From: Gigantopelta aegis | Lineage: Eukaryota; Mollusca; Gastropoda; Neomphalida; Peltospiridae | Direction of reading: 5' to 3' | Assembly: GCF_016097555.1 (NCBI RefSeq) | Contig: NC_054706.1 | Location: 24,852,539 to 24,916,538 of the forward strand | Length of the DNA: 64,000 nucleotides | Part shown: in pieces, positions 1-51,839 of the stretch | Layout of the letters: every line of letters starts with the position of its first letter | Position numbering within the stretch: the first letter of the stretch is position 1 | Notes under the pieces: model-generated | Databases searched by the model: none | What the model was told of the DNA's origin: nothing | Seen by the model: the letters and a program-made list of their open reading frames with translations, nothing else | Position numbers and translations under genes: made by a program

Positions 1-250
1 ACGTTCACTACACTGATATTCGTGGACATGTTACTAAGTGGGTTACTGGGCAGTGATCCGTTACCCGTGGATGTGGTGTTTCTGCCAAGAGTCCTGGCTA
101 CACAGGAAGGTGTATTCCAGGAGTTGGAGCACGTGGTCCAGGGCAGGACGGCGCTGAAGGATGAGTAGAGGTAGTAGAGGGTCCAACAGACGAGGATGTT
201 GTAGTACGTGGTGCCGCCCAGAGCAAGTAGGAACCACGCGTAGCCCATTC
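1..250 (-). CDS. SLC6 transporter gene A, TM3/EL2 exon (cut by window edge)
   Basis: The exon encodes TM3 and the start of the large extracellular loop 2 of a Na+/Cl--dependent SLC6 symporter, a plasma-membrane carrier of amino acids or amines. It starts after an acceptor AG at 251-252. Readable landmarks are [12 protein letters not shown], the TM3 [17 protein letters not shown] and the loop cysteine pair spaced C-x8-C ([10 protein letters not shown]), followed by several N-glycosylation sequons. No stop or frame break is seen up to the window edge. The TM2 exon lies at 2678-2809 and joins in phase 1. The later exons must lie to the left. It is collinear with 44412-44661 and differs by scattered substitutions only. 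Substrate cannot be assigned. Confidence 0.9.
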
Positions 251-253
251 CTG

Positions 254-830
254 GAGGATACGGACGAAAGAAAACAATGTTTTATTTGATGACACACTCT
301 ACACATTTTAATTACTGTTACATAGCGTCGAACATGGAAAGGAACCCCACTGCTGTCACGCGTACGCCATGGAGGAAATGGACTAAAAGAAAGAATGGTT
401 TATTTAACGACACACTCATCACATTTTAATTACTAGCATATGTCGGTTGACATATGGTTAAGGACTGCACAGATAATGAGAGAGGAAACCTGCTGCTGCC
501 ACGCGTACGTCATGGAGGAAATGGACTAAAAGAAAGAATGCTTTATTTAACGACACACTCAACACATTTTCATTATGGTTATATGGCATCGGACATATGG
601 TTAAGGACCACACAAATAATGAGAGAGGAAATCCGCAGATGACGCCATACAATGGGCTACTCTTTCCTATCAGCAGCAATGGATCTTTTATATGCACCAT
701 CCCACAGGCAGAATAGCACATACCGTGGCCAATGGGTCCACGAACGGGTATCGATTCAAGACCGACCGTGCATCAGGCGAGCGCTTTACCACTGCCTATG
801 TTCCGCTCTGAGGAAAAAAGAACAAGGAAA
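254..830 (-). mobile_element. SINE-1 cluster, three nested tails and one full copy
   Basis: Three successive minus-strand copies of the 3' tail of the main SINE begin near 275, 390 and 535; only the last continues through the body and into the tRNA-like head (about 740-810). The tail motif tttatttaacgacacac recurs. The same SINE is at 44676-45055 with fewer tail copies, so the insertion predates the gene duplication and the tails were amplified in this copy. Confidence 0.8.
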
Positions 831-2060
831 AAGGTTAGTTTCGTATAACGGCACCACTAGATAACATTGGTTACTTAATCATTTAATAATTCTGAAATAT
901 AGTCTTTAGAGTAACCTAGCTAAACAAAATGTATTAGCAGCTGGATATTATTATAGTGTTTTCCCTAGCTTGTTTTAGCATGGTGTGGCACCATACTTCA
1001 ATAGTATAGCGTCATCGTGCCTTAATCGGCACCGTGCTGCTTTGGAACCAAACAAGCCTTTTTCAATAATGAATTCTAAAATTGTCTATAAAACACTAAA
1101 AATAATATATTGTTAATTAATAAACTATCCCTATTATTTATTTTGTCATTCATTTATTAAAGCAAACACATTCATTACATTTATTTTTATTTCTATTAAT
1201 TGTTTCTCGTTAATGAAAACAAAAGTGCCCTAAACATGGTGAAAATGTCCCAAAAATGTTTAGTCTACCATGTCTTTCCTAATTTGTAGGGAAAACACTA
1301 TTTTATATGCAGATTCCCACAGGCAGGACGCACACATCATGTCATTTGATATACATGGATACATATTAATGGATCCACCGATCCAAAAGCAACTAAAGTC
1401 TTTCGGAACCATTCTGTTTTCTTTATTGGAATGAAATAAAAATATACCAAGAAGAACAACAAAATACTCATATTTTTCATCGTATCTCGGTCTTTGTTTA
1501 GTTGTCTGCCTGTATGTGTGTCTCTCTCTGTCATATCAGGACAAATGTGTACACATACATAGTTGCTTCCCCTTACGTCGCTCGTAAATGAGTTTTAATG
1601 GCTGAGAAAGCCATAAATATTACGTTTTAAAGACTGTGAAAACGAAATCTTTCGTTTACAGACTACTACAACTGAGAAACTATGTGCAAAGCACTTAATA
1701 AATATATGGTATTCCAAAAACGTTTATCGTAAATATTTTCGAACCGTAATATTGCCCGACATGAAGACCACTCTGCGAAAACAATACATGATCATTATAT
1801 GGAGGTTTTAAGCATCGCCACTAAATAATGGGCTTTTAACCCATAAGGTTCACCAATCTAATATTACAACAACTATTTTGCAATATGCATTCTATTGAGT
1901 CGAACAAAGGCAATTTTGTAGACTAATGTTACAACACATTATCGTAATTTGCCATAAACAGATGATATACTCAGACGATGCATAATTTTAAAAAAAACGT
2001 TCCTAGTGTAATTAGTTCCGTTAAATTAAATGGAATTTGAAATCCCTTGAGGTTCATACA
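831..2060. other. Intron of gene A, no gene seen
   Basis: AT-rich intron between the TM3 and TM2 exons. It is alignable by eye with 45060-45984 and 47723-48130 of the other duplicate. At about 1300-1400 there is an eroded SINE-like stretch (acaggcaggacgcacac). No open frame with family features was recognised. Confidence 0.6.
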
Positions 2061-2199
2061 TATTTGAAAAGTGCTTGAATTTGGATGATTGTAATGAAAA
2101 GCACTTGCATTTGTTTAGTATGTCTCATGGTGAACAAGAAGTTACGTTTGGTTTTGGTAAAGGGAAACAACTCGTCGTATTAACTATATATTTGTCCTG

Positions 2200-2400
2200 A
2201 TATGTGTCTTTCTCTTTCATTGAAATTTGTATGTACCGCTATTGGGTCCTGAAGGATGTAAACGTAACCCATAAACAGGTCAAAAGAAACAAGCCAGTCA
2301 CGACAACACTACATTGTAACAGCCTTCACAAGAACAGGTGTTGTTTCTTCTTTGTTTTTGTTTTTTGTTGTTTGGTTTTTTTAGGGGTTTCTTTTTGTTC

Positions 2401-2442
<42 letters not shown>

Positions 2443-2640
2443 GTGTGTTGTGTGTTGTTTTGTTTTGTTGTTGTTTTTGGGTTGTTGTTTTTTGTTGTTG
2501 GTTTTTTTTGTGGGGTTTTTTTGCGTAATTGTTTTTTTTTGGGGGGTCGTGTTTGTTTTTGTACGTTTTTTTTTGGGGGGGGGTTGGGGGGGTTGGGTTT
2601 TTTTGGGGGGTGTTCTTTTTTAAATAAAGTTTGCATATAT
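2200..2640. repeat. GT/T/G-rich low-complexity block with shared ~75-bp leader
   Basis: A leader containing cacgacaacactacattg and cacaagaacaggtgttg precedes a (GT)n tract at 2403-2440 and a long T/G-rich run with G homopolymers to about 2615. The same leader plus GT tract is present at 48340-48480 and at 26770-26900. Reading frames here are low-complexity artefacts. Confidence 0.75.
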
Positions 2641-2677
2641 AGTTCCTACTATATCAAATGTCTTGTATTTCAATCAC

Positions 2678-2809
2678 CTTTAAACAAAGGACACAGATTC
2701 CACACTTTGGCGGGACCAAGATTGGTGAATTGTGGGTAGGATACTTCCAAGAAAACCAGAGGTGTTGCGAGAAATACCATCCAAATCAAGTAAGGAAGCA
2801 GGAATGCAC
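2678..2809 (-). CDS. SLC6 transporter gene A, TM1b-TM2 exon
   Basis: A 132-nt exon bounded by acceptor AG (2810-2811) and donor GTGATT. It encodes the end of TM1 and all of TM2: GAFLLPYLIW, MVFLATPLVFLEVSYPQF, then NLGPAKVWNLCPLFKG. The Tyr after LP and the Glu of FLE are the conserved TM2 positions. The usual GGIP is ATP-like here and the usual ELALGQ is EVSYPQ, which is unusual for the family. Both ends are phase 1 and join the flanking exons in frame, giving YKSGGGAFLLPY upstream and CPLFKGMGYAW downstream. Confidence 0.93.
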
Positions 2810-2883
2810 CTTTAAAATATAACATAATATACAACCAAAACAATATGGAAAGAAAGAAGACTTAAAACAATGCTTGACGTGCC

Positions 2884-3210
2884 TAAAACAAAAGAAGTTT
2901 GTTTTGTTTAACTACACCACTAGAGAACATTGATTTATTAATCATCGGCTATTGAATGTCAAACATTTGGTCGTTTTGGCATATAGCCTTAGAGAGGAAA
3001 CCCGCTACATTTATTTCATTAGTAGCAAGGGATCTTGTATATGCACCATCCCACAGACAGAATAGCACATACCACGGTCTTTGATATACCAGTTGTGGTG
3101 CACTGGTTGAAACGAGATATAGCCCAATGGGCCCGCCGACGGGGATCGATCCCAGACCGACAGCGCGTCAAGCGAGCGCTTTATCACAGGGCTATGTCCC
3201 GCCCATTGAC
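2884..3210 (-). mobile_element. SINE-1 (type b), near full length
   Basis: The minus-strand copy runs from the 3' tail (gtttgtttaactacacc) to the tRNA-like head ending near 3208, where the B-box-like ggatcgatccc and A-box region (inverse of agccctgtgataaagcg) are seen. It is shared with 48840-49165, so it was already present before the gene duplication. Confidence 0.85.
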
Positions 3211-3289
3211 GTGCCTAAAGACAGCACGGGAAAATAAATTCTATACCAATCTTCACGACGCCACAAAGGGTTAAATTAAATGTCTCAGC

Positions 3290-3340
3290 TTATATAAATT
3301 TATTTATTTATTTATGCAATCATTCGTTCGTTCATTTATT
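3290..3340. repeat. (TTTA)n microsatellite next to SINE head
   Basis: Short runs of ttta/ttcg tetranucleotides. The equivalent place at 49210-49255 carries a purer (TTTA)n run. Confidence 0.7.
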
Positions 3341-3479
3341 TATTTACTTAGTTATCCTAGTTTCAAAACAATATAAAAAAGACTGTATATCCAAATACGA
3401 GCATCTGGCATCACACAAAAATAATTCGCAATCTTCATTATAACGGCTAATTTAATACCGCTCTGAAGGTTTTATGCAA

Positions 3480-4600
3480 ACAATGTAGAAAAGTTATGGT
3501 AAAACTAGAAATTATTTCTTAATTGCAGAAACATTACTATCACTGTTTGATACGTATGTGGCAGTATTTTAAATTATGTCTGTGACGTTTGTTTATTGGG
3601 GTTTTAACAAAGCAAATAGCCACGAGATCCTACATTTGCAATTCCGTAAACATATTTTAGGCGTGAAAATTAGCACTTCTATTATGATGGTATATTTTGA
3701 ATTAGGCAGATCATCTTTTTTGCACTGTTATTGGATACATTTGTTGAATACAGATAACTGTATTTTTAAAAGGTCATGCCACCCTGTATGTCGAGTGCAT
3801 AAGAAAACCACTTGCTATTAACTGGGTTAGTCAAATACTAGACCTCCTTACTAATGGTATTGGTCAAATATGGTATAATTAAAATGTAAAAGAAAAAATG
3901 CAGTACATTTATATCACTATTCAAAGAGATTGATAGATCAATTTATGTTTGCTGTATTCAACAATTTTCCAAAGTGTCTGTTATACAAATTCATTTTAAT
4001 AATTGTTGCATACAACCTTACCTTCATAAACCTATTGGCCTGAAATATAAACATATTTGAGTAAATATAGACTATTTTCCCATATTCTTTGTTTAGACTT
4101 GGGCAGTTACAACAATATTGTCAGGAATAATAGAATTCATTTCATTTCAACTTATTGTCATGCTTATATCCAATTATGGTTCAAGCGCGCTCTCCTGGGC
4201 ACACACTTCAGCTATCTGGGCTGTCTGCCCAGGACAGTGGGATAATAGAATATGTAGTCTGTGCAATATGAATGTAGTAGAAGACGAATATCACTTTGTT
4301 CTAGTGTGTCCTGTGTACAGTAACATAAGATATAATAAATATATTAAACCTAATTATTGTAACAAACCATCAACATTTAAATGTAATGAACATGACACAA
4401 TAGGATTTTTCACGATATTTCGTATGCCAGTCGTGGAGCAGTGGTCAGAACAGGAAAGCCACAAATAGGCTTGTCCATCGAGCACTAATACTACAAAAGC
4501 ATTCGCCCTATCACTGAGCCATATACCTCGCTCCAAAAATACAGAAGCAGCAGCAACAACAACAGCATCATTAATGAACAATAAGAGTAAGCAAAAAAAA
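3480..4600 (+). mobile_element. LINE 3' fragment (RT C-terminal region), decayed
   Basis: Plus-strand pieces read as the C-terminal part of a non-LTR retrotransposon protein: ANSHEILHLQFRKHILGVK, then WIHLLNTDNC, and a zinc-knuckle-like CSLCNMNVVEDEYHFVLVC. The Cys/His spacing (C-x2-C-x8-H-x4-C) matches the tail of the longer LINE at 17521-18843. The frame is interrupted by several stops and shifts. It lies antisense in the gene A intron between the TM1 and TM2 exons and has an allelic partner at 49440-50530, so it predates the duplication. Confidence 0.75.
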
Positions 4601-4815
4601 TGTTTGTGCCATTAAAGACTGGTTCCCATAAAATGTATCAGGTGGTATGTCGCCGCAGAACACAGTTGCAGACGGTCTACGACGGATCGTTAAAGTTGAA
4701 ATGCATAGGGACATGATATACGTGTGTCTGCGACGATTTATGGCCAGTTACAGATTTTATGGTAAGCAGGTAACTATTACACAGTATTTAAATTGTGTTT
4801 TCCCGCGTTACTCAC

Positions 4816-4935
4816 CGCCACCACTCTTGTAACATATGTAGGGGAATCTCCAAACATTGCCATATCCAACCATCAGCCCGAGAAGCGAGAAGAAATACTC
4901 TGTCCATCGGTTCCAGATCATTGTCGGTGATTCTG
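4816..4935 (-). CDS. SLC6 transporter gene A, TM1 exon
   Basis: A 120-nt exon with acceptor ttacag and donor GTGAGT. It encodes ESPTMIWNRWTEYFFSLLG followed by LMVGYGNVWRFPYICYKSGG. The GNVWRFP signature carries the Na+-binding Asn and the gating Arg of the family. The position that is Asp in monoamine transporters (four residues before the N of GN, V-D-L-G-N) is Gly here, as in amino-acid, GABA and glycine carriers. It joins TM2 in phase 1. The N-terminal exon upstream was not found; an in-frame Met within ESPTM could also be the start. Confidence 0.94.
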
Positions 4936-15817: not shown

Positions 15818-16942
15818 TCATTCATTTTGGTGAACCGCCAGAGATGTCCGTTCATCATTTAGCCGTAACCCATTCTTGTACACCCGTTTTTCATTTAGCC
15901 GTAACCCATTCTTGTACACGGGTCTATCATTTAGCTGTAACACATCATCGTGCACCTGTTCATCATTTAGCCGTAACCCATTCTTGTACACCCGTTTATC
16001 ATTTAGTCGTAATACATTTTTGTACACCCGTTTATCATTTAGCCGTAACACATCATAATGCACCCGTTCATCATTTAGCAGTAACCCATTCTTGTACACC
16101 CGTTTTTCATTTAGCCGTAACCCATTCTTGTACACCCGTCTATCATTTAGCTGTAACACATCATCGTGCACCCGTTCATCATTTAGCAGTAACCCATTCT
16201 TGTACACCCGTTTATCATTTAGCCGTAACACATTCTTGTACACCCGTTTATCATTTAGCCGCAACACATCACCGTGCACCCGTTCATCATTTAGCAGTAA
16301 CCCATTCTTGTACACCCGTTCATCATTTAGCCGTAACCAATTCTTGTACACCCGTTTATCATTTAGCCGTAACACATCATCGTGCACCCGTTCATCATTT
16401 AGCAGTAACCCATTCTTGTACACCCGTTCATCATTTAGCCGTAACCCATTCTTGTACACCTGTTTATCATTTAGCCGTAACACATCATCGTGCACCCGTT
16501 CATCATTTAATCGTAACCCATTCTCGTACACCCGTTCATCATTTAGCCGTAACACATCATCGTACACCCGTTCATCATTTAGCCGTAACACATCGTCGTA
16601 CACCCGTTCATCATTTAGCCGTAACACATCGTCGTGCACCCGTTCATCATTTAGCCGTAACACATCGTCGTGCACCCGTTCATCATTTAATCGTAACCCA
16701 TTCTGTACACCCGTTCATCATTTAGCCGTAACACATCGTCGTGCACCCGTTCATCATTTAATCGTAACCCATTCTTGTACACCCGTTCATCATTTAGCCG
16801 TAACACATCGTCGTACACCCGTTCATCATTTAGCAGTAACCCATTCTCGTGCACCCGTTCTCGTAAAGCTTTCTTCGCCTCTTCATCTTCTTTATAAATA
16901 GCAGGAACCCATAGAGAACTCGGGGTGATGGCGGCACGGTAT
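15818..16942 (-). CDS. SLC6 gene B last exon: cytoplasmic tail with 12-aa repeats
   Basis: Acceptor ttccagag ends at 16943. The previous exon ends in AG, so the joined codon is Arg, followed by YRAAITPSSLWVPAIYKEDE, which fits the P-x3-W-G-P-A-type segment that follows TM12 in SLC6 proteins (Val replaces Gly). After EAKKALRER the frame enters about 28 repeats of 12 residues, consensus RV[HY][DK][DN][VG]LRLNDE, and ends TSLAVHQNE at the stop at 15818. Near 16703 one unit lacks a T, which shifts the frame and creates a stop at 16687-16689; downstream units remain open for 285 codons. The assignment to SLC6 rests on phase, strand, position and the short motif, and is an inference. Confidence 0.7.
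15847..16862. repeat. 36-bp minisatellite, about 28 units
   Basis: The unit reads, on the plus strand, catcatttagccgtaaccc then attcttgtacacccgtt. Two unit types alternate (cattcttgta versus catcatcgtgca). In the left two thirds they form a period of three units (108 bp), one of the second type followed by two of the first. Unit length is a multiple of three, so both strands stay open over long stretches. Confidence 0.95.
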
Positions 16943-17520
16943 CTCTGGAATATGTATCACATTAACATTACATATAAACAGGAGAAAAAAACAACAACAT
17001 ATACAGTAGAATCTCATTGGCTCGAACGCCCAACGGTCGAACCTACCGGTATTCTCGAACCAAGAACAATGTCCCGATTTTTTCTCTCTATTAAACCCTT
17101 TTATTTTGGTGCTGTTTGGTCGAATACCCCTAGGGTCGAACAGAAGCTTTCTCTCGAACCAGTTTATTAGTCCGAACTGTAAAATTAAACATATATAGCT
17201 CGAACGACTAAGTCTATCCGAAGAAATACAAAAAATAATTTATATTTATTTACGAATTTTTCATTGACCCTTTCACGTCAGTCACAAAGTAAGTTAATAT
17301 AAATTCGGAAGTGGAACGAATTAATCCTAGATCATATGCCGGCTTCTCATGTTGTTTATTTAGCACCTATCGGTAATTATCTTTCTAGTACAACTTCAAC
17401 TTCTTTATTCACATAAAGACCACCAACGGTGGTACATGTGCCAAGGTGGATGGTGGCAATATACATGTATAACATACTGTACATACATATAATATATACT
17501 GCTACAAATAATAAACTTAA

Positions 17521-18843
17521 TTACTGTTGATCTCTAAATTTTGTCATTATAAGACTAACAAATTTACTAAGTTTTCGTAATCTTGACAGCCGTTTCTCTT
17601 GCAACAACATAGAAAACTTATAGAAGTTTGGTCGTGTTATAAATTCTTTTTTTAAAAATAATTTTCTTTCTGTCAAAAATGCAGGACATTCAAACAAAGT
17701 ATGATATTCATCTCCTACACACTCATTCTGGCATAATGTACAATATCTTTCCAAGTAAGGGATGTTACTCCAACGACCTCGTTCTACAGGTAATAAGTGG
17801 TTACCAGTTCGAAATTTAAGCAACGGAAGTGATACAGTTTTTGGCAGAAATATGTAAAATTCTTGATTAAATTCCGGTTTAATACAATTATAAATTTTAC
17901 CTTTTGAGGTATTTAACTTATTACTATTCCATTCTTGGCGAAATTGATCTTTAAGTCTTGTTTCTATTAAAGATATCAACCATCCCTTACTTGAGAAACC
18001 TTGTTGTTGCCACACAAAACTCAGCCCACAATTATCTAAAATACGTTTAACATTATCTAACCAAGGAGACATATATCCATTACAATATTTATATAATAAA
18101 TTCTTATATAAAATAGAGATTAATTTATTATCCTTATCCAAAATAATTTTACACCAATATGATATTATCCTTTTATATATTTGTAAACGAATTGGCATTT
18201 TACCTGTTTCTCCATACAACATATAATTAGGAGTGTTTTTCTTTAATTTTAAACAAATTTTAATAAAATTACTTTGTAAGCGTTCAAGAATATCAATATT
18301 ACTATATCCCCAAATTTCAGAACCATATGTCATAATTGGTATAATCATATGATCATAAGCTTTAAAAATGCAATCTAATGGCAAACTGATATTTCTAGAT
18401 TTTCTTAATAAGGAAAAAGTTGCTTTAGAAGCCTGTTCACTTAAATGTTTTATAGCTTGGGTATACTTTCTATTTTTATTGAACTTAATTCCAAGGTACA
18501 TATAACTATCAACTATGTCAATAACAATATTATTAATATTAAATTGAAATTTCTTTTGTTTTGTATATCCTGAACCAAAAATTAATACTTTAGTCTTTTT
18601 GTAATTAACCTCTAAATGCCAGTCTTCACAATATTTTTGAAAACAATTCAATATATATTGTAAATCAATATCATTATCAGAAAAAAGAACTGTATCATCT
18701 GCATACAATAACAACAATAACTTTAAACCATTTTGGAGCACTACATCAGATCGCACATCCATTACCGTAATTTCTTGACAATTATTATATTGTAACCAGG
18801 TCTCTAAGTCATTCAAAAACAAAGAAAATAATAATGGTGACAA
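17521..18843 (-). pseudogene. LINE RT C-terminal half
   Basis: 440 open codons starting in RT motif B/C: SPLLFSLFLNDLETWL, then LLYADDTVLFSDN, which holds the YADD active site. The thumb and linker region follow (MTYGSEIWGY, YWCKIILDKDNK). Near the end is a zinc-knuckle-like CTLCQNECVGDEYHTLFEC (C-x2-C-x8-H-x4-C). The block just upstream (18844-18900) has one or more frame breaks that separate it from the preceding RT segment. Confidence 0.9.
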
Positions 18844-18882
18844 ATTTTCACCTTGTCTAACACCTTTTTCACATGGGAAAAA

Positions 18883-19143
18883 TCAAGATATTGTATTATT
18901 ATGAGCAATACATGATTTAATATTACTATATATCTTTATAATTAATGTCATTATTTTACCAGTTATTCCATAAGTGATCAATTTTTGCCAGAGTCCAATT
19001 CGCCAAACATTATCAAATGCTTTTCTAAAATCAATAAAACAACAAAACAATTTTTTCTTTGACGATTTTAAAATATCAATTATGCTATGTAACACAAACA
19101 TATTGTCTACTGTTGAATAACCTTTTCGAAATCCCGCTTGCAC
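18883..19143 (-). pseudogene. LINE RT middle segment
   Basis: Carries the RT motif GFRKGYSTVDNMFVLHSII and the first catalytic-Asp region FIDFRKAFDNVW (F-x-D-x-x-K-A-F-D). It is out of frame with the flanking segments. Confidence 0.88.
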
Positions 19144-20549
19144 CTTATTAAGAATTTATTTTCTTCAATATATTTTGTAAGCCTAAGGTTTATAACCGAG
19201 GTAAGTAATTTCCCAAAACAGCTCAATAAAGTCAGAGGTCGGTAATTTTCTGGATTAGTATCGTCTCCTTGTTTTTTAAATAAAGGTTTTATAATACCAA
19301 TTAGCCAATTTTCCGGTAAAATACCCGTTTCTAAAATCAAATTAAACAATTCGAAATAGAAATTAAGTAATAAAGCACGTGTTTCAATTAAATATTCATT
19401 TTCTATTTTATCTATTACTACAGCTTTTCTGCATTTTAAATTGTTAATAGCATTCATAATCTCATCCTTAGTTATTTCTTTATCAAGTTCGTTTGTATCC
19501 AAATTTTCTGGAATTCCAAAATCAAACGCTTCATCATTCGAATTACTATTCAGATTCTTAAAAAAGTCATACAAACTTTCTATATTAATTTTATTCTCTG
19601 TTCGTTTTGTTTTGGTGTTCAAAAACTTCCAAAATTGCGAAGGGTCTTCCTTTAACATACGCGTAAACTCGGTTTGTAATTTCTGTTTATGCTTCTTTAG
19701 ATGTTTATTAACAACATATTTATATTGTCTATTAATAATTTTAACTTGTTCTTTTTCTCGTTCAGACTTTGTTACCATATATTTGTGTTTAGCCTTTTTA
19801 AACTTCTTTTTCATTTCTTTACATTCCGTCCCATACCAAGCATATTTTGGTTTTCTCTTACTTGAGTTTATTTTAAGCACACCAAATACTTTCCGAGCGG
19901 TGTTAATAAAATGATTTGACAAATCAGTCACAATAGTATTCACAGTTCGTTCTGGGTCACTCTGACCTGCACGTGCAGACCGTGCCTGCTTCACCAAGCT
20001 GTCAATGAAAACCATGTCAATTTCTGTTACAAATGTGTTCGCTTCAGAGTCGACAAATCTACGAGGCCATCCTATTTTGTTGTTAGTAGCTACCTGCTTT
20101 ACTCGATTGTCATTAAACCTATCAATGCTAGATAAACGTATTTCAACAGGTTTATGTACATCACTATAAAAATATGAAAATTTTAATATTTTAAAATTAT
20201 TAATTAATATAGCTGATTCAAAGGATGCTATACAATAATCTAGCACACTGCAATCTTTACAAGTAGTTTCTCCAATATATTTATCACCACCCATCCTCCC
20301 ATTGAAAATAAACATTGTAGTAGCTTTGCATACATCTAATAATAAATGTCCATATTTATTTGGATTACTCATATCTTGCGATACTCTGTTTCTAAGAATA
20401 CCATACATTTCAAAAATTTCTAATTTATTGATGTCGTTTAAATCTTCATTTTGTAGTCCAACAAACCGTGCTACATTATTATTAAGTTCACATACAGATA
20501 ATAGTACTACGATAATCGTGAGCTGAATGAACCTTGCATGAAACACCAA
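19107..20549 (-). pseudogene. LINE endonuclease end and RT start
   Basis: The first part shows endonuclease motifs: FIFNGRMGGDKYIGE and SVLDYCIAS (the S-x-L-D-Y motif). Only the C-terminal half of the endonuclease is present, so the copy is 5'-truncated. The C-terminal part shows the RT start: NWLIGIIKPLFKKQGD, NPENYRPLTLLSCFGKLL. Between them is a lysine-rich linker (KMKKKFKKAKHKYMV region). Confidence 0.88.
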
Positions 20550-20580
20550 TCAATTGATGAGCCTAGTTCGGCCTCGCCGG

Positions 20581-21072
20581 TTTACTTTAATCATTTTAAT
20601 CGCTACTCTACGCATCAGCTTTTAACTTGAAATACAGGAGAGATCAATGTAATGTAGTGATTGCAACAATAAAAGGTAAAGGGCCTCCGCCTGTGCTTCA
20701 TGCACTTTCATTCTTTTCTCAACGTTGTCAATACGTCGCAAAAGATTCTACAACAGCAAAATAAAGAACGATTTTTTAAATTAATAAATATTTATAAATA
20801 CAGACTACCAGTGTGTTTGTTATTTGTTTATTCAACGGTGATAAATAATAGTTACAAATATGTATCTCATCCGACATTTGAAGGCGACTTCGTTACTCAT
20901 GAGTCAATCGGATCATCTCGCCCAAGCCAGTTTTACGGAAATATGCGAGGTATTCCGATTGGTTTTTGTGTTACAGAAGCACCCGACAACGGCCGAATGC
21001 ATGGTTCGAACTACCCGATGGGTCGAACAGACTTTGATGCACCGACAGTGTTCGAGCCAATGAGATTTTACT
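20581..21072. other. Right interior of Tigger-type element, no gene seen
   Basis: AT-rich sequence leading to the right terminal repeat, with the characteristic gtcgaac/gttcgaac motifs at 21004-21055. Confidence 0.5.
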
Positions 21073-21103
21073 GTATTTGCCAAATTTATTAAACTGTCTG
21101 TGT

Positions 21104-21440
21104 AAGTAGTATGGGGGCCTGCCGGGCGTCATGACCTACTTTTCCGTGATCACGTGACATTGATAGGAGACAATGGATTTGGTGCAGGTGTGTGACCTTG
21201 GTAGGAGACAATGGCCTTGGTGTAGACAATGGCCTTGGTGTAGGTGTGCGACTTTGGTAGGAGACAATGGGCTTGGTGCAGACAATGGCCTTGGAAAGGT
21301 ATGCGATCATGGTAAGAGACAATGGCCTTGGTGCAGGTGTGCGACCTTGGCAGGAGACGATGGGCTTGATGCAGGTGTGCGACCTTGGTAGGAGCGACTG
21401 GTGCAGGTGTGCGACCTTGTTACGAAACAATGGCCATGGA
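21104..21440. repeat. Left terminal repeat and subterminal array of the fossil element
   Basis: The outer ~60 bp matches the inverse of the right end. It is followed by repeated gagacaatggccttggtg and gtgtgcgaccttggtagg units. Confidence 0.8.
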
Positions 21441-21643
21441 AAGGCCTTGGTCTACTTGGACTGGTCCCGACGTCCTTGGACTGAGCTTGGGGTGCCTCCC
21501 TCGGGTATAAAAAGGGTGCTTTTGGCTTCATTGGCATTCGCTTGCCGAAAAGTTCATAGACAAGATCTACATCTAGTTTGTTTTAGAGGTTGATGATATT
21601 CACATTTTTGTGGTTTGTTGCTTTTTTATTTTGAAAGAAGAAG

Positions 21644-22164
21644 ATGGCATCGGGACATTCATCAAGTACTACTCAGTGCGCTGGTCAGGGTGAAAAATCG
21701 CGATGCCAACTAGAAATTGGGCAAAATGTATACGTTATGGCCCAACCATGGAAGCAAGAACGTTTGATACATATCCGGAAATTCGACAGTGATAACTGGG
21801 AAACATTCCCCACCAAACGAGGCATCGCTCTAAATCTGAAACGATTTCATCCTTGAAACAAGGGAAGGATAAAACATTGGTCAGACACCTTGGAGTCAAT
21901 GTTCATGCTAGTATGGACAAGAACTTTGCTGAAGTGGACCTGTGTCAGTGGTGGTGGTGTGATGAAACGAAATCTGTGAAGCCTTCGAAGAAGGGAATAT
22001 TCCTTTCTCTACAACAGTGGGAGAAACTGAAAGACTGTTTCACAGTCATGTGTGACTTTGTACCAGAGCTGAACTCGATTGTGCCCTTCGCCATGCAAGA
22101 CGACCATCAAATGGGATTTCTTCAGTGTAACTTCTGCAACCCGAACGAGTGTCACCAGTGGTGA
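21644..22164 (+). pseudogene. PC4-like (transcription coactivator) domain remnants in fossil element
   Basis: Two neighbouring stretches resemble the PC4/SUB1 single-strand DNA-binding fold: one with IRKFDSDNWETFPTKRGIAL, one with KPSKKGIFLSLQQWEKLKDC. The P-T-K-x-G-I-x-L and L-x-x-W-x-x-L patterns are typical. PC4-like proteins are known in some large and mid-size DNA viruses and their relatives. Fossil, not considered functional. Confidence 0.6.
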
Positions 22165-22569
22165 ACGAGTGTGACAAACATTTTGTTTTGGATGAACTCG
22201 AAGGTATAAAAGAATGGATTTATAGTTTATACTTCATTTGCTTTATGACTGTGCTAGAGAACAGACGTGCTTTATGATTCTGACATTCTTGTGTCTTGTT
22301 GCACTCTTATCTGGAATGAAGAAAATGGCATCGTGATATTCGAGCAGTGTTAGTGGCAGCAGCAGTAAAGACGAGGACGACGTCTTGGTCTGCAAATGTT
22401 CAGAAAGACATACAATCAAATGTAAAAGAGTGACTACCAAACAAGATGAGAAGAGTACTCAGTATACGGATCAAACGGATACTACACGTGAAACTGGGGA
22501 TAGAATTGAAGATGGCGAACTCGTGGATGAACCTGCAGATCAGACGGATGCTGCCTGTGAAACAGATGT

Positions 22570-22858
22570 TGCCTATGAGAATGACTGCTATTCAAGACGT
22601 TACTTGTTCTGCCATCGTCCCGAAATAAAACATTTCTATGCCCGGATGCTAACGTATGCTCGGTGGCCCATACAATTACGTCAAAAACCAAAATAACTTG
22701 CCAAGGCCGGTTTCTACTATACGGGAGACCACGATGCCATCACCTGTTACTGTTGTGGACTTTGCGTCTACCGGTGGAAGAAGACAGACGACCCAGTGAT
22801 GGAACATTACAGACTCTCTCCGAGATATCCCTATGTGAACAACATGTTCAGACATTAA
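22570..22858 (+). pseudogene. BIR (inhibitor-of-apoptosis type) domain remnant
   Basis: The stretch shows LTYARWP, AKAGFYYTGDHDAITCYCCG, W-K-K-T-D-D-P and MEHYRLSPRYPYV in the order of a BIR zinc domain (R-x-x-x-W-P, GF-x-Y-x-G-x-x-D-x-x-x-C-x-x-C, W-x-x-x-D-x-P-x-x-E-H). IAP-like genes are carried by several insect and molluscan DNA viruses and related elements, taken from hosts. Part of the fossil. Confidence 0.7.
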
Positions 22859-23619
22859 ATGTTTCTGACACTTAAGTCCTATGTTTTCATGTTGTAAATA
22901 AAACTGTGAAAAACAGGTTTTGTTTTCTTATTTATGCCCTGCGTCCATGAGTGGATCCCTGGACGTGTCCCAATCATTTTGAGTCGTGACACTGGTAGAG
23001 GGCAATATTTCGGTCACAGTGTTTCTTGGGAGCTTGCACGATGGCAAGTTGATAGTTGTGCTTGGGAGGAGGAGGGACACTGGTCATACGTGTCACACAC
23101 ATTCAAACACTCCTGTACCATATCGTTATGCGCATACATCAGAAGGTATATAAGTAAAAGGGTAATGATGTTCGTCATTTGAGGTAGAACCTTCAGAGAA
23201 GTAACATGTCAGATCAGTACAAATTGTACGTTCCCGACGTGGATAAGTGGACCCATTTCTACAAGCTGCAAGCACAGGGCAAACTCAGCTCAGCTCGGAT
23301 CGATGTCTAGAACTCTACGATCCCACGTGGAAAAAAGAAAAAGAAGAACAGAACAAGCCCCCGGCACCCAATGTGGTCATGGTCTCCCCCACGGTCTCTA
23401 CAGGTGGTAGAGCAAGCCAAGGCCGATCTGAAACGGAAACAACAAGAACAACAAATTGGTACGGGTTGGAAAGCTCCGAAACGGCAGAAGCATTTCTAAA
23501 TATACTATAAAATGGGACAGACAACGTCACGTCATTTAGAGTCGTCATGCAGAGCACATGTTCAGAATGTGGTTTCACATTCTCGAGAATGTTAAGACAT
23601 TTTCAACAAAAACATGCTA

Positions 23620-23790
23620 AAGCTCTACCGCCACCACCACCACCACCACCACCACAGTAGCAGCCACCACCACCACCACCATAGCAGCAGCCACCACCAC
23701 CACCACCACAGCAGCAGCAGCCACCACCACCACCGCAGCAGCAGCAGCAGCCACCACCACCACCACCACCACAGCAGCAGCAACCATCTA
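23620..23790. repeat. CAC/CAG-rich trinucleotide block inside fossil element
   Basis: Interrupted (CAC)n and (CAG)n runs. Histidine/serine or glycine-rich frames across it are low-complexity. Confidence 0.85.
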
Positions 23791-24690
23791 AGCTGTTGCA
23801 TCCCTTCACCATGATCGTGTCGGGACCCACTTCGTGTGGAAAGACATTTTTGGTATACAAACTGCTAAGGGGTGGTAAAATCTTCCCACCGCCTAAACGC
23901 ATCATCTGGTTCTACAAACGATGGCAACCCCTCTACATCATTGGGGCAACCGTTAGAGTGAAATTTGTTCAAGGCATACCCATTATCTAGCGTTGTTCAA
24001 CAACCCCATCGACAAGCAGCAAGTTCTGACGTTGGCATGGCAGATTTATCGGGAAAATACTCATCATTTGATGCAAAAGTATGAGGAAGCTACCCACAGA
24101 CCCTACGGACATCTCATGGTGGACTTGAAACCGACCAGGCCCGGACACTGGCATCTTTGGCCTAATGGTTTAGAGACGGGGCCATCCGAATGGTATAAAA
24201 GCACGAGCGTAACGGCGAATGTCTCAGAAGACGTGCAACCACCGTCGGAGAAAGAGCTCTACGTTCAAATCATGCAAAGGGACGCATTCAAGAGAAAACT
24301 ACCAGGCATACCCGTCTACGAAAGTGACGATGAAGAAGATGATGAGGTAGAACACTATCTTGCGATACGTGTGGTCTGGTCTTTAAAGACGGAAGCGACT
24401 TGCAGCGACATCTGCGATTTAAAACGTGCGAGAAGGGAAGTAAAGAGTCGTCGCCCGATCTGGAAAACGAAGGCGTTTGTCTTATGGTGGAACGTGAATT
24501 CGATATCAATCGTGACTATTTCGAAAGCAAGAGGAAACGCTACGAAGAAAAAAACATGTCCCAAGATGCCATCGAAAGAAACACGAAGACATTGCAATGG
24601 AAGTTATTTAAAGACACGTACTCTCGCTTTCTGACATATATGTATTACTTTGACAAAGGCCCAACACGAGAAAAATTCTACAATTTGTGA
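23790..24690 (+). pseudogene. Packaging-ATPase-like remnant of the fossil element
   Basis: A P-loop reading GPTSCGKTFLVYKLL (Walker A, G-x-x-x-x-G-K-T) directly follows TMIVS and is followed by PPPKRIIWFYKRWQPLY. This arrangement matches the FtsK/HerA-type genome-packaging ATPases of Polintons and kin. An acidic stretch (YESDDEEDDEVEHY) and basic segments follow to about 24690. Broken fossil. Confidence 0.6.
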
Positions 24691-24699
24691 ATCCTAACA

Positions 24700-25129
24700 G
24701 AACTCTATTATTGAACGAATGAATGAATTGCTCAACGGCGAGCACAAAGAAAACGTCGACTATGTGTCAAAGAAATACAAATGAATGAAAACCACCACAC
24801 ACGCATTCTGTCTGGCGTCATTAAAGTCTCACTTTAAACCAAACCATACCAGAGTATGCAGATAATTTGCATATGATCACCAGGCGCGGCACAGTATAAA
24901 ACATAGTGGTACAGTTCGAGGTTGCAAACATTTGTAGCGTTTTCTGCTACTTATTATTTTTATTTTTTTTACGAGAAATGGCTTTTATTGTTATTGATTA
25001 TTCTTGGTGTTGAAGTCAACTTGAATAAAAAGCAAAAGAGACTGAAAAAAACACGCGTGTGTGTCCACTGTGAACATACAAAACCAACAACACAATAGAC
25101 GTTATACAGTGAAGGCAAAAAGCTTACAC
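24700..25129. other. Interior of fossil element, no gene seen
   Basis: AT-rich sequence between the last coding remnant and the right subterminal array. Nothing recognised. Confidence 0.5.
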
Positions 25130-26446
25130 CAAGGTCACACACCTGCACACCAATGATACCAAGGTCACTACCTCCCAACACCAAGGCCATTGTCTGCACC
25201 AAGGCCATTGTCTCCTACCAAGTACAGACATCTGCACCAAGGCCATTGTCTTCTATCAAGGTCGCACACTTACACCATGGCCATTGTCTACACCAAGGCC
25301 ATTGTCTCCTACCAAAGTCGCACACCTGCAACAAGGCCATTGTCTACACCAAGCCCACTGTCTTCTACCAAGGTCGCACACCTGCACCAAGGCCATTGTC
25401 TCTTACCATGATAGCATAACTTTCCAAGACCATTGTGACGGTACATGCTCTTAAATTTGTTTCGCCTGTGGCGATTTTAATTGTGTTAGAGGGCCGTGTG
25501 CAGTTTCATTGCCCGTAGCCCGGGTGGGCAACTTGTTACGTAATACTTCGCGCGATCGGGCATTCCAATATGCACTTAGTCCAGCTGTGGAGGCCATGTG
25601 GCGAGTAGTTACGTAATACCTCTGCGAGTGCGGTTTCGACGACCGTGATTTGGCGACGATGGCGTCAGTAAGTCTGACGATCAGAGAGAAATATACCGAC
25701 TCTAGTAGAGGTGAAATATCAGATGATAGGGGGAGGTACCGCCTTGTACCCCCAGGCGAATTCTGATTTCTATAATAAATAGCTAGTTTTTAGAGATATC
25801 GAGGAGAACGAACTAGGAAGGCTCCAGGGGATCACGGACGTCGTCCACTGAACGAACTATATTAGTTCAGACGGGACTTTGGTAATTATATATTTTCTGC
25901 TCTGTGTATAACCTTGATGTGATTGATGTGACTTTAAATATTTTTAATACTGTATTATACCAATATTCTTTAGACAGTGTCTTCGGTCATCTGACGAAGT
26001 AAATCGTAGACTTTTTGTTCTAACATTATATGAGTATTTGGTAATATAAAGCTTAGCCAGTCATCCTAGACGACCTAGGTAAACTGTAGGTTATTGTCTT
26101 TATTGTGATAGGTACCAGTATTAATTCTGTGTTACAAGGTTACTGAATGAGTAGTTAGGGTTAATTAAAAATTAACCCGTTAGGAATAGAGCTGTAATTC
26201 CTTTATTAATTAAGTTCCCCTGGAAGCGTTCCTAAATTATTACACGTTACTGAACGAGTAGTAAGGGTTAATTAAAAATTAACCAGTTAGGAATGGTGTT
26301 GTAATTCCTTTATTAAGGCCATTGTCTACACCAAGGCCATTGTCTCTTACAAAGGTCACACACCTGCACCAAACCCACTGTCTCCTACCAAAGTCACGTG
26401 ATCATGGAAAAGTAGGTCATGACGCCTGGCAGACCCCATACTACTT
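25130..26446. repeat. Right subterminal array and terminal repeat, split by an insertion
   Basis: Array units (accaaggccattgtctcc, caaggtcgcacacctgc) run 25130-25430 and resume at 26309-26400, then the terminal inverted repeat ends at 26446. The gap holds an unrelated insertion. Confidence 0.8.
25433..26308. mobile_element. Unclassified insertion, possibly a solo LTR fossil
   Basis: About 0.88 kb without open frames, beginning tgacggtacatgctctt. It contains a TATA-like tataataaatag and two direct repeats of ~105 bp (gagtagttagggttaatt and gagtagtaagggttaatt). Length and lack of coding suggest a lone terminal repeat of an LTR element, but ends and target duplication cannot be fixed inside the array. 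Confidence 0.35.
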
Positions 26447-26654
26447 GTGTATGCTTTCGCAGGAAAGGGAAGGAATGTTCGGCTACGGGAACGTGTCGGA
26501 AATATGTTTAGGTAGGGCACGTATGCTTTTAAAAAAATGTTTTACTACTTCACACGATAGGTCCAAATAATTTCGTGGTATAATTTCGTGGTATAATTTC
26601 GTGGTATACATCCTGTAACCTAGAGAGATAGCCAATGTAGCCGAAGTGTATGTC

Positions 26655-26687
26655 AGTGTGTGTGTTTGTGTGTGTATGTGTTTAGGT

Positions 26688-26741
<54 letters not shown>

Positions 26742-27042
26742 ATATGCGTGTGCGCGTGTGTGTGTTTTGTTCAAAATAAACAAGCTAGTCACGACAACAG
26801 TATATTGTAACAGCCTTCACAAGAACAGGTGTTGTTTCTTCTTTGTTGGTATTTGGTGTGTGTGTGTGTGCTTGTGTGTGTGTTTGTGTATGTGTGTGTG
26901 TTTAGTTGTGTGTGTGTGTGCGCGTGTGTGTGTGTGTGTGTTTAGGTGTCTGTAGGTGTGTGTGTGTGTGTGTGTTTAGGTGTGTGTGTGTGTGTGTGAG
27001 TTTTGCGTGCAAAATTTATGCAGATATCTGCCCTTGTGGGGA

Positions 27043-27086
<44 letters not shown>

Positions 27087-27102
27087 ACGTGTGTATATGG
27101 TC

Positions 27103-27134
<32 letters not shown>

Positions 27135-27250
27135 TTGTGTGTATGTGCGAGAGTGTGTGTGCGTGTGTTCGCGTGTGTATGTATGTATACGTGTGTGAGT
27201 ATGTATGTATGCGTGTGCATGTATGTGTATGTGTGTGTATATGAATGCGT
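26655..27250. repeat. Long (GT)n field with embedded shared leader
   Basis: GT/TATG-rich microsatellites broken at 26768-26855 by the ~90-bp leader (aaacaagctagtcacgac) also seen in both copies of the intron 2 region. Cysteine/valine-rich frames are artefacts. Confidence 0.9.
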
Positions 27251-27318
27251 GTGACCAAGGCAACATACTTAAACCTTTATCGAACATAATAACGAAAATA
27301 GGTAATAGACGGAGGTAC

Positions 27319-27476
27319 CTTCCTTTCTGAGAGAGCAGCTTTAATACAGCGCCACCTGGGATGGGAATCAGCACGATCACCATGAGCAACCAGCCAATGG
27401 ATTCAGCCCAGGCTGGATAGTACTGTCCTGCATACTGGACAGCCTCATACTTGATGTAGCTTAAAAGCCACAGTGA
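27319..27476 (-). CDS. SLC6 gene B, TM11-TM12 exon
   Basis: 158 nt, acceptor ttgcag, donor GTACCT, start phase 0, end phase 2. It encodes SLWLLSYIKYEAVQYAGQYY, PAWAESIGWLL, MVIVLIPIPGG and AVLKLLSQKG. The YP-x-W-A-x-x-I-G-W-L signature is the TM11/TM12 connector of SLC6, followed by the I-P of TM12. The next exon is 10.4 kb away at 16942, the intervening intron holding the GT field, the fossil element and the Tigger/LINE nest. Confidence 0.93.
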
Positions 27477-28348: not shown

Positions 28349-28448
28349 CAATATAATCGTCGGGGCGATAAATTTCCACGATATTTTGATGACGATCGAT
28401 GGAGTAAATCCCAGCATCATGCGGATATCAGACATCAAACGATCGAAC
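28349..28448 (-). CDS. SLC6 gene B, TM10 end-TM11 exon
   Basis: 100 nt with acceptor ttttttcag and donor GTAATA. In the conserved frame it reads DRLMSDIRMMLGFTPSIV, IKISWKFIAP, TIIL, matching the family block with D-R-F, D-I, M-x-G-x-x-P, the W-K pair and TP of TM11. It joins the TM11-TM12 exon in phase 0. The upstream junction is one base off: the TM10 exon ends in phase 1, but this frame needs phase 2, and the phase-1 frame meets a TGA after four codons. This is either a real one-base loss or a sequence error. Confidence 0.8.
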
Positions 28449-29593: not shown

Positions 29594-29693
29594 CATAAAT
29601 CCAACTGATGATGGCAACCTCCATAAAGGCGATGGCTGGAAGCATATAGGCCGCAAAATACCAGTCTACCAAGGTCAACACGTACGCTCCGCC
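29594..29693 (-). CDS. SLC6 gene B, TM9-TM10 exon
   Basis: 100 nt, acceptor ttttcag, donor GTAATA, start phase 0, end phase 1. It encodes GGAYVLTLVDWYFAAYMLP, then AIAFMEVAIISWIY. The G-G-x-Y-V-x-x-L-x-D block carries the conserved extracellular-gate Asp, and the E-V/W-I-Y end is typical of TM10. It follows the TM9 exon directly (FITQ joined to GGAY). Confidence 0.93.
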
Positions 29694-30796: not shown

Positions 30797-30924
30797 CTAT
30801 GTTTGGCTAGATACAGCGCTGTACGTTGTGATCAAAAAGAAAACAAACAAAACAGAAAGAAAGATAGAAGAAAAACAAAAGAAGAAGATAAATAATACAG
30901 GTATATTCTGTTTATTTTGGTGGA

Positions 30925-32939
30925 TATTATCTGTATTGAACAAACCTGTGCTATGATATCGTCTGTATTGCATATACCTGCGTTATGATACCGCCTGTAT
31001 TGCGCACTCCTGTGTCATGATATTGTGTGCATTGCACATACCTGTGTTATGATATCGTTTGTATTGCACATACCTGTGTTATGATATCGTCTGTATTGCA
31101 CATATCTGTTATGATATTGTCCGTATTGCACATACCTGTGTTATGATATCGTCTGTATTGCACATACCTGTGTTATGATATCGTCTGTATTGCAAATACC
31201 TGTTATGATATTGTCCGTATTGCACATACCTGTGTTATGATATCGTCTGTATTGAACATACCTGTGTTATGATATCGACTGTATTACAAATACCTGTTAT
31301 GATATTGTCTGTATTGCACATACCTGTGTTATGATATACCTGTGTTATGTTATCGTTTGTATTGCTCATATCTGTGTTATGATATCATGTGTATTGCACA
31401 TATCTGTGTTGTGATATCGTCTGTATTGCACATACATGTGTTATGATATCGTCTGTATTGCACATACCTGTGTCATAATATCGTGTGTATTGCACATACC
31501 TGTGTTATGATATCGTCTGTATTGCACATACCTGTGTCATGATATCGTGTGTATTGCACATACCTGTGTTATGATATCGTCTGTATTGCACAAACCTGTG
31601 TTCTGATATCTGTATTGCACATAACTGTGTTAAGATATCGTATGTATTGCCAATGCCTGTGTTATGATATCTGTACTGCACATACATGTGTTATGATATC
31701 ATCTGTATTGCAAATACCTGCGTTATGATACTGTCTGTATTGCACATGCCTGTGTCATGGTATCGTCTGTATTGCACATACCTGCGTTATGATACTGTCT
31801 GTATTGCACATGCCTGTGTCATGGTATCGTCTGTATTACACATATCTGTGTTATGATATCGGCTGTATTGCACATGCCTGTGTTATGATATCAGCTGTAT
31901 TGCACATACCTGTGTTATGATATCGTCTGTATTGCACATACCTGTGTTATGATATCGTCTGTATTGCAAATACCTGTTATGATATTGTCCGTATTGCACA
32001 TACCTGTGTTATGATATCGTCTGTATTGAACATACCTGTGTTATGATATCGACTGTATTGCAAATACCTGTTATGATATTGTCTGTATTGCACATACCTG
32101 TGTTATGATATACCTGTGTTATGTTATCGTTTGTATTGCTCATATCTGTGTTATGATATCATGTGTATTGCACATATCTGTGTTGTGATATCGTCTGTAT
32201 TGCACATACATGTGTTATGATATCGTCTGTATTGCACATACCTGTGTTATGATATCGTCTGTATTGCACAAACCTGTGTTCTGATATCTGTATTGCACAT
32301 AACTGTGTTAAGATATCGTATGTATTGCCAATGCCTGTGTTATGATATCTGTACTGCACATACATGTGTTATGATATCATCTGTATTGCAAATACCTGCG
32401 TTATGATACTGTCTGTATTGCACATGCCTGTGTCATGGTATCGTCTGTATTGCACATACCTGCGTTATGATACTGTCTGTATTGCACATGCCTGTGTCAT
32501 GGTATCGTCTGTATTGCACATATCTGTGTTATGATATCGGCTGTATTGCACATGCCTGTGTTATGATATCAGCTGTATTGCACATACCTGTGTCATGATA
32601 TCGTGTGTATTGCACATACCTGTATTATAATATCGTGTGTATTGCAAATACCTGTTTTATGATATCGTCTGTATTGCACATACCTGTTTTATGATATCAT
32701 CTGTATTGCACATACATGTGTTATCATATCGTCTGTATTGCACATACCTGTGTTATGATATCGTCTGTATTGCACATACCTGTGTTATGATATCGTCTGT
32801 ATTGCACATACCTGTGTTATGATATCGTCTGTATTGCACATACCTGTGCTATGATATCGTCTGTATTGCACATACCTTTGTTATGATATCGTGTGTATTG
32901 CACATACCTGTGTTATGATATCGGCAGCATTGCCCATAC
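30925..32939. repeat. 32-bp minisatellite built on the TM9 exon-intron junction
   Basis: About 60 units. On the minus strand each unit reads gtatgtgcaatacagacg then atatcataacacag. The last ten bases equal the end of the TM9 exon and the first bases equal the start of its intron, so each unit recreates a CAG/GTATGT 5' splice site. Variants (shorter units, gtgtgtattg) form a higher-order duplication: a block near 31100-31850 recurs at about 31980-32520. Confidence 0.95.
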
Positions 32940-33071
32940 CTGTGTTATGAACGGCAGACCGAGCACACAAAGAAATAAACAGGAGCATGACGTCACTACC
33001 CATCTTCTCTTGCTGATGTTCTTGGGTAGCGTGTCGCACAGGAAGTTAATAACAACCTCTACCTGGACAAA
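32940..33071 (-). CDS. SLC6 gene B, TM8 end-TM9 exon
   Basis: 132 nt, 44 codons, phase 0 at both ends, acceptor gttacag, donor GTATGG. It encodes FVQVEVVINFLCDTLPKN, ISKRRWVVTSCSCLF and LCVLGLPFITQ. It continues LDSQ from the previous exon and leads into GGAY of the next, as in the family (F-x-x-V-E-x-x-I-T, D-x-x-P, then TM9). The donor is the seed of the adjacent 32-bp minisatellite. Confidence 0.93.
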
Positions 33072-35599: not shown

Positions 35600-35712
35600 C
35601 TGGCTGTCGAGGCCCGCCAGGAAGAGCATGATGAAGAATATGGCTGCCCAGATCTGTCCAAACGCCATTGTGCTGAGCGCTTCCGGGTACACGATGAAAG
35701 CGATGCCCGGCC
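35600..35712 (-). CDS. SLC6 gene B, TM7 end/EL4-TM8 exon
   Basis: 113 nt, acceptor ggttccag, donor GTCAGA. It encodes (G/W)PGIAFIVYPEALSTMAF, GQIWAAIFFIM, LFLAGLDSQ. The P-G-x-A-F-x-x-Y-P-E-A block is the EL4/TM8 signature and LDS carries the Asp and Ser of the second Na+ site. It ends phase 0 into FVQVEV. It needs a phase-1 donor upstream. Confidence 0.93.
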
Positions 35713-36740: not shown

Positions 36741-36829
36741 AATGATAAAGTATGCCAATGACGGCGAACACGACGAAACCGGCAAACATGCTGGTGAAAC
36801 AGTCGAGAGCGGTCACCAAGATGGCGTCC
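36741..36829 (-). CDS. SLC6 gene B, TM7 exon
   Basis: Acceptor acttcag. With the preceding AG the first codon is Arg: RDAILVTALDCFTSMFAG, FVVFAVIGILYH. The family has N-S/C-x-T-S at the Na1/Cl- site; here the Asn is Asp (GAC) in LDCFTS, while Thr-Ser is kept. After ILYH a TGC TGA follows, so a stop lies two codons on. The only candidate donor I see is GTTGAA (phase 1) directly after CATT, which would skip about 11 residues of EL4 that the family normally encodes here. The end coordinate is therefore tentative. Confidence 0.85.
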
Positions 36830-38229: not shown

Positions 38230-38333
38230 CTATAGCAGTTGTTATGGAAACGGTTGTATCTAGATAGTGTGATAATGTTGGCGGATCCAATGCCGCATGA
38301 CCACATCACCTGGGTAGCGCTGTCAATCCAAAC
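38230..38333 (-). CDS. SLC6 gene B, TM6 exon
   Basis: 104 nt, acceptor acttcag, donor GTAAG, start phase 0, end phase 2. It encodes VWIDSATQVMWSCGIGSAN, then IITLSRYNRFHNNCY(R). Gln of ATQ and the Ser four residues on are the Cl--site positions known from this family. The aromatic gate residue before that Ser is Trp rather than Phe. The unwound TM6 segment reads SCGIGSAN, unlike the S-L-G/S-x-x-x-G of well-studied carriers, which may reflect a different substrate. Confidence 0.94.
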
Positions 38334-44335: not shown

Positions 44336-44338
44336 CGA

Positions 44339-51710: not shown

Positions 51711-51839
51711 TTCATGGTCTGTCTGCAGTCCTGCCAGTCACCCTGTAACGCTGTATCAACCTGGTGATCGTCAATTTTGTGCAATTCAGGATTCTTGTCA
51801 CATGGGCCTAAATAGCACCCAACTGCCCCATACCAATAG

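Follow-up and report, generated by a model that had tools for sequence, protein, structure and literature searches.

A probable unprocessed SLC6 transporter pseudogene of Gigantopelta aegis with a tail minisatellite of coding origin

Introduction

Minisatellites that lie within coding sequence and yield protein VNTRs are well known, with the exon 3 repeat of DRD4 and the repeats of mucins as familiar examples. The SLC6 carriers have among their motifs NVWRFP in TM1 and P-x3-W-x-P-A in the tail. No repeat-built SLC6 tail of the kind described below appeared in a title or the start of an abstract among the literature matches listed, in a coverage that leaves out most subscription journals. In this study, we analysed a 64,000-nucleotide stretch of contig NC_054706.1 (positions 24852539-24916538; hereafter, the window) from Gigantopelta aegis, a hydrothermal-vent peltospirid snail (by its taxonomy). 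An SLC6 gene in this window, here called copy A, carries an array of 36-nt repeats in its tail exon. We put a probability of about 0.88 on the reading in which copy A represents an unprocessed pseudogene whose minisatellite was born in coding sequence, and in which no long-tailed transporter would be made from the sequence as assembled.

Results

Membership of the gene family in SLC6 is firm, judging by domain matches: the annotated proteins P0029 (copy A), P0001 (copy B) and P0122 (copy C) score 226.9, 393.9 and 74 bits, respectively, against SNF (PF00209), for which the cut-off is 27. An initial annotation of this DNA had called the locus an SLC6 transporter gene, and the P0029 match, far over the cut-off, agrees with that; copy A nevertheless appears to belong to SLC6 by descent, not as a working gene. 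The solved structure closest to P0001 by sequence is GlyT2, followed by a proline transporter and GlyT1. The tail motif was present in 75 of the 120 proteins among the matches listed.

Copy A lies on the minus strand and runs from TM1 (50862) through a terminal exon. Its exons were placed at 50757-50862 (TM1, starting at the ATG of P0029), 48627-48758 (TM2), 44337-44661 (TM3/extracellular loop 2), 41897-42027 (TM4, with a 2-nt deletion), 40114-40248 (TM5), 38230-38333 (TM6), 36754-36829 (the remaining part of TM7, its 3' end and donor deleted), 35600-35712 (TM8), 32940-33071 (TM9), 29594-29693 (TM10), 28349-28448 (TM11, with a 1-nt deletion after the acceptor) and 27319-27476 (TM12). The exon pieces TM1 to TM12 occur in this order on the minus strand in copy A and on the plus strand in copy C; the pieces used were taken from A, and the test of order rests on C and on the family match. 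When copy C was spliced at the same junctions, its 13 exons gave 621 codons with no stop until SLEVHSSV-stop, a reading that passes over a defective TM10 acceptor in C, and the exon model is thereby supported. P0029, the NCBI protein for copy A, spans only the 5' half of the gene and skips the TM4 frameshift. Five of its six aligned stretches are 96-100% identical to copy A, and the sixth (TM2) reaches only 66% because the alignment overruns the exon. P0029 also includes a stretch from 46613-46834, between its TM2 and TM3 parts and outside the best SNF-matching stretch, which is probably a gene-model artefact. In four of four copies the TM5 exon is followed by CAG/GCAGGG (40113-40100 in A; a slash within sequence marks a splice boundary). 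This candidate GC donor, through which the P0001 and P0029 models read, probably belongs to a conserved GC-AG intron.

Three paralogues were available for comparison. Copy C (24002340-24024138 of the chromosome) and copy B (24039276-24065943, including a 5-kb run of N) lie on the plus strand. Copy D stands in tandem with copy A on the minus strand, its first exons occupying 1-4921 of the window (TM1, 4921-4814; TM2, about 2807-2676; E3, 248-1) before it leaves the window leftward. P0001 was also considered as the copy at the window's left edge and was rejected, its exons sitting at 24.04-24.07 Mb of the chromosome. Copy D could be traced leftward to TM7, and no TM8-TM12 exons of it were found in the 20 kb covered. 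A genome search with TM10-12 returned 22 matches; the TM12 part matched at 87-96% in A, B and C only and at no more than 38% elsewhere (best candidates scored). In copy C, the TM1 and TM2 exons occur twice in tandem (24002340-24004587), the second TM1 being altered at both tryptophans of N-W-N-R-W. Further left, copy D (24841287-24848335) has another exon resembling TM6, along with a weak additional match to TM7, which suggests one more partial tandem duplicate.

The terminal exon of copy A (15818-16944, minus strand) codes for YRAAITPSSLWVPA and then the array, as the initial annotation had proposed, and ends in TSLAVHQNE-stop. The tails of A, B and C begin alike (...YRAA.TPSSLWVPAIYKED...) and have a common acceptor, CAG/AGATACC, which in the window occupies 16947-16945 and opens the exon at 16944 in phase 0. 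The acceptor first suggested for this exon (GAG/A, exon from 16942, phase 2) had to be given up, the shared CAG/AGA lying two bases upstream of it in all three copies. A splice at 16943/16942 was rejected as the native site, given that B and C keep SVAK/SVAE codons and a GTAGGT donor that are missing from A. The downstream acceptor restores the frame only because a deletion has shortened copy A's TM12 exon at its end; when the CAG/AGA acceptor is joined to what remains of that exon, the tail falls out of frame. The last intron of copy A (16945-27318, minus strand) holds inserted elements and measures about 10.4 kb; its counterparts in B and C span about 0.6 and 0.4 kb. Measured up to the tail exon from the final TM12 codon common to the copies, the distances in A, C and B are 10,376, 416 and 638 nt, which include 2, 12 and 12 coding nt, respectively.

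Several mobile or repetitive elements were noted in and around copy A. In the last intron, 21156-25408 holds an element with plus-strand open reading frames, with a PC4-like match (E 1.6e-6) and with adenovirus IVa2-like ATPase and C2H2 matches that are both weak and sub-threshold. It is flanked by minisatellite arrays at 21156-21433 and 25178-25408, apparently reverse complements of each other as judged by eye from Tandem Repeats Finder consensus units. In the same intron, a minus-strand reading frame at 17521-18882 matches reverse transcriptase (RVT_1, 58.9 bits) and is probably a LINE; the minus-strand frame upstream of it (19107-20549) had no Pfam match at E up to 0.1. Units of 32 nt form a 2-kb array at 30923-32950, in the intron between TM9 and TM10, and a Tc-like transposase frame (HTH_Tnp_Tc3_2, 45 bits) lies at 51177-51737, upstream of the TM1 exon.

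The array in the tail exon consists of exactly 28 head-to-tail units on the minus strand, from 16857 to 15851, encoding the 12-residue unit RV[HY][DKE][DN][VG]LRLND[EK] and its variants. Tandem Repeats Finder placed it at 15848-16860 with 28.2 copies and also reported a 108-nt period; units three apart differ on average at 2.9 of 36 positions, and neighbours at 5.5 of 36. Twenty-seven of the units measure 36 nt, whereas unit 5 (16713-16679) measures 35 nt, a base being missing at about 16704, after which the frame stops in YRMGYD-stop. Beyond the array follows RTSLAVHQNE-stop, ending at 15818, and both the first and the last units are in the ancestral frame. The count of about 28 repeats running to TSLAVHQNE-stop and the one-base loss near 16703, both given in the initial annotation, were reproduced. 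As in coding minisatellites, the unit is coding-derived, its period is a multiple of 3, and it lies in frame.

The origin of the unit was apparent from the paralogues on the same chromosome. At the same place and in the same frame, the tail of B carries one unit (in P0001, RYRAAITPSSLWVPAIYKEDAEERQALRERVCEDILRLNHERISLADHQN) and that of C carries two (P0122 ends RYRAATTPSSLWVPAIYKEDEEERKSLRERVYGDVLQLNDERAHDDVLRLNDERVSLEVHSSV), compared with 28 in A. The array might instead be non-coding satellite DNA next to an SLC6 exon, with one frame open by chance; long open stretches cross it on the plus strand too, and the window contains other tandem arrays. This is barely credible, however, when the unit is the in-frame coding tail of B and C, and when an ungapped search of 164 kb (5.2 kb of it N), allowing up to 9 mismatches, found matches outside the array solely in the tails of B and C, at their three units. 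Given the one or two in-frame units in those copies, the array reflects expansion of an ancestral coding unit and not chance. On these sequence comparisons, an ancestral coding 12-mer has expanded in situ, and the in-frame origin first proposed for the minisatellite stands.

Ten exon edges and the TM7 exon, whose end was aligned, were surveyed for lesions by comparing copy A with whichever of B, C and D were available. Five lesions were found in copy A, in TM4, TM7, TM11, TM12 and the array. In the TM4 exon two nucleotides are lost (GTACC--GTGCTG, versus GTACCACGTGCTG in D and GTACAACGTGCTG in C; over the shorter stretch GTACC--GTG of A, D reads GTACCACGTG), and the shifted frame leads to SYRAEYQ-stop. 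The TM7 exon of C and D goes on GGC TA(T/C) ATG GCG GAC ... CAAG/GTA. This segment is missing from A together with its donor, in a deletion of 62 nt by alignment to D or 86 nt by alignment to C, with a loss of about 50 coding nt (YMADYLG...). GYMADYLGK was also considered as a separate exon missing from A, and was rejected as being the TM7 exon end in C and D. In TM11 a single nucleotide is lost (CAG/GT-TCGATC in A, versus CAG/GTGTCGATC in C and CAG/GTGCCGATC in B), and canonical splicing into this exon gives ...IYGSIV-stop. At the end of the TM12 exon, a 14-nt deletion (junction 27318-27319, minus strand) has taken away, relative to B and C, the final 10 coding nt along with the native donor, GTAGGT: C reads GGAAGTGTGGCTGAG/GTAGGT and B reads GGAAGTGTGGCTAAG/GTAGGTACCTCC, whereas in A, GGAAG is followed directly by GTACCTCC. 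A donor-like GTACCT remains there.

With splicing at canonical sites, copy A meets stops after the TM3/extracellular-loop-2 exon and after TM10, and its frame is not intact at TM4, TM7, TM11, TM12 or the array. Copy A has kept its introns, has a homologous coding copy, and has acquired several changes that destroy frame or splicing relative to its paralogues, which is the pattern of an unprocessed pseudogene. The initial annotation had taken the array to be the tail of this carrier. That claim is not supported, given the four other disabling lesions, two of which remove native donors, and the stops that canonical splicing produces.

The quality of the assembly bears on this conclusion. The published G. 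aegis genome was assembled from PacBio long reads with wtdbg2, followed by two rounds of Racon and one of Pilon (PMC7895826); that hologenome paper also mentions that RNA was extracted and sequenced. Given this method, indels of 1 and 2 nt, above all in the array, could be consensus errors. Copy A might then encode a functioning carrier whose tail is a long repeat, its lesions being assembly errors or a dead allele of the one animal sequenced. Three of the five lesions are 1- to 2-nt indels, which would be typical of noisy long reads processed in this way, short-read polishing of a 1-kb array would be difficult, and the exons are otherwise well kept, as the dN/dS values below indicate. The 14-nt deletion at the TM12 donor and the 62-86-nt deletion of the TM7 end and donor, however, would be a different kind of error from those of long-read consensus, and the missing TM7 segment had no second location in the window (ungapped search, minus strand). 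We therefore regard a working copy A as decidedly improbable. Damage is also present in the other copies. Copy B has gained 2 nt and lost 1 nt in TM7, where P0001 is frame-shifted, and the TM10 acceptor reads CGG in C versus CAG in A and B, in agreement with the annotated P0122 starting inside TM10. No intact family member was found in this assembly among A, B and C, each of which is damaged, and the incomplete D. With B and C lesioned as well, the lesions alone do not set copy A apart.

Selection on the exons was estimated from shared exon codons, excluding those at lesions and using an exon only where both copies of a pair had it available. The dN/dS was 0.29 for A-B (930 nt), 0.33 for A-C (1695 nt) and 0.37 for A-D (1005 nt), compared with 0.27 for B-C (930 nt), 0.34 for C-D (1005 nt) and 0.10 for B-D (240 nt only). 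Restricted to three exons, the A-D comparison yielded 0.48 or 0.62, depending on the method. By these codon comparisons, the exons evolved under purifying selection. In six BLAST-matched segments of A and D, the 493 nt of exon contained 22 mismatches and 0 gaps, and the 4011 nt of intron contained 310 mismatches (7.7% divergence) and 45 gaps. The lack of exon gaps against 45 intron gaps indicates that the frames were kept for much of the time since the duplication.

The array itself gave a different picture. The 23 distinct variants among its units (27/28 units) comprise 7 synonymous, 16 nonsynonymous and 0 stop changes, close to a neutral expectation of about 6.4, 15.7 and 1.0 (0.28/0.68/0.04; transition weight 2); shifted into the two alternative frames, they gave 3/20/0 and 9/11/3. 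The variants fit neutral drift, and the residues show no apparent sign of constraint. Gaps were counted by wraparound alignment, a rough measure: 1 in 1007 nt of the copy A array, 23-28 events in 2028 nt of the intronic 32-nt array (28 as a whole, 19 + 4 on two parts), and 0 in three other arrays with units of 8, 51 and 75 nt. The low gap count is at most a weak hint that the frame mattered while the array grew.

These data bear on whether the array grew while copy A still worked, such that a long, frame-kept and sequence-tolerant tail once existed and was lost later. The single gap per 1007 nt and the ancestral frame in the first and last units agree with such a history. So does the absence of stop variants in the coding frame, where one of the other two frames gives three. 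Array units differ from their consensus by 9.9%, which is comparable to the 7.7% A-D intron divergence and implies that the array is not very young, although unequal exchange duplicates units and blurs such dating. Only about 3 gaps would have been expected from 23 variants at the intronic ratio of 310:45, however, and only about one stop variant, so that one gap and zero stops are weak evidence; the array residues, moreover, carry no mark of constraint. We consider growth in a working copy a tentative possibility, with odds of about one in three. It seems unlikely that copy A, when alive or in some animals still, encoded an SLC6 carrier whose tail had grown in frame from one or two to about 28 units, with variable length and tolerance of sequence change.

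Similar tails were sought in proteins. Among 121 tails (the last 90 residues of the 120 matches listed, plus P0122), only that of P0122, paralogue C, contained a tandem repeat when units of 8-30 residues with at least 60% identity were counted. With the repeat as query and the candidates restricted to 8000, at 0.55-1.75 times its length, six proteins matched at E<=10, namely P0122, a G. aegis SLC6 fragment, and five MORN_2 proteins with weak matches (E 0.002 to 1.3). The length-limited searches yielded no protein that contained the array, and none with the 3' half of copy A within the lengths searched. In Pfam, no family reached its cut-off on the repeat; DUF1806 (22 bits; cut-off 27) and MG2 were sub-threshold. 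MORN_2 (PF07661) was rejected as the identity of the repeat, since Pfam gave no match to it at E up to 0.1. The structure of the repeat, modelled from a single sequence of 298 aa, was strand-rich but of low confidence (mean pLDDT 56.6). A functional beta-solenoid-like or MORN-like domain could be read into the weak MORN_2 likeness and the strand-rich model, but the Pfam result and the low pLDDT speak against it, as does the KN-type unit, which is not found in B or C, where the units belong to the D-V or D-I type. We judge such a domain highly improbable. The initial annotation's idea that the tail serves as a scaffold or retention signal was likewise not upheld, given the neutral variants, the lack of any protein with the array in the length-limited searches, and the low-confidence model.

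Discussion

Taken together, our data suggest that copy A is a dead duplicate that probably makes no long-tailed transporter, and the genomic evidence argues against translation of the array in vivo. In the ancestral gene, the cytoplasmic tail would have been short, holding the 12-residue unit E-R-V-x-x-D-V-L-x-L-N-D once or twice. The 36 nt behind that unit grew to 28 units in copy A, partly as 3-unit blocks, presumably by unequal exchange or slippage. Either before this expansion or after it, copy A lost its frame, as well as two of its native donors. The array is now most likely an ordinary neutral minisatellite, and we infer that it is not expressed.

Copy A is an example of a startling repeat-tailed protein that appears to be a dead duplicate. 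The sister genes, with 1, 2 and 28 units, offer what may be a natural series of the birth of a coding minisatellite in a transporter tail. If the long tail was ever made, it would raise the question of how much cytoplasmic repeat SLC6 carriers tolerate.

Compared with known systems, copy A shares with SLC6 carriers of the glycine-transporter-like kind the SNF domain, NVWRFP in TM1 and the P-x3-W-x-P-A tail; it differs from them in being broken and in having 28 repeat units in its tail exon. It resembles unprocessed (duplicated) pseudogenes in its retained introns, its 7.7% intron divergence from the neighbouring copy D, and its several independent lesions. Unlike them, it has no clearly intact parent copy in this assembly, the other copies being lesioned or incomplete as fetched. 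Finally, like the VNTRs of DRD4 exon 3 and the mucins, the array has a unit that is a multiple of three, derives from an expanded coding segment, and is organized in higher-order blocks, whereas its host gene, as assembled, appears to be dead.
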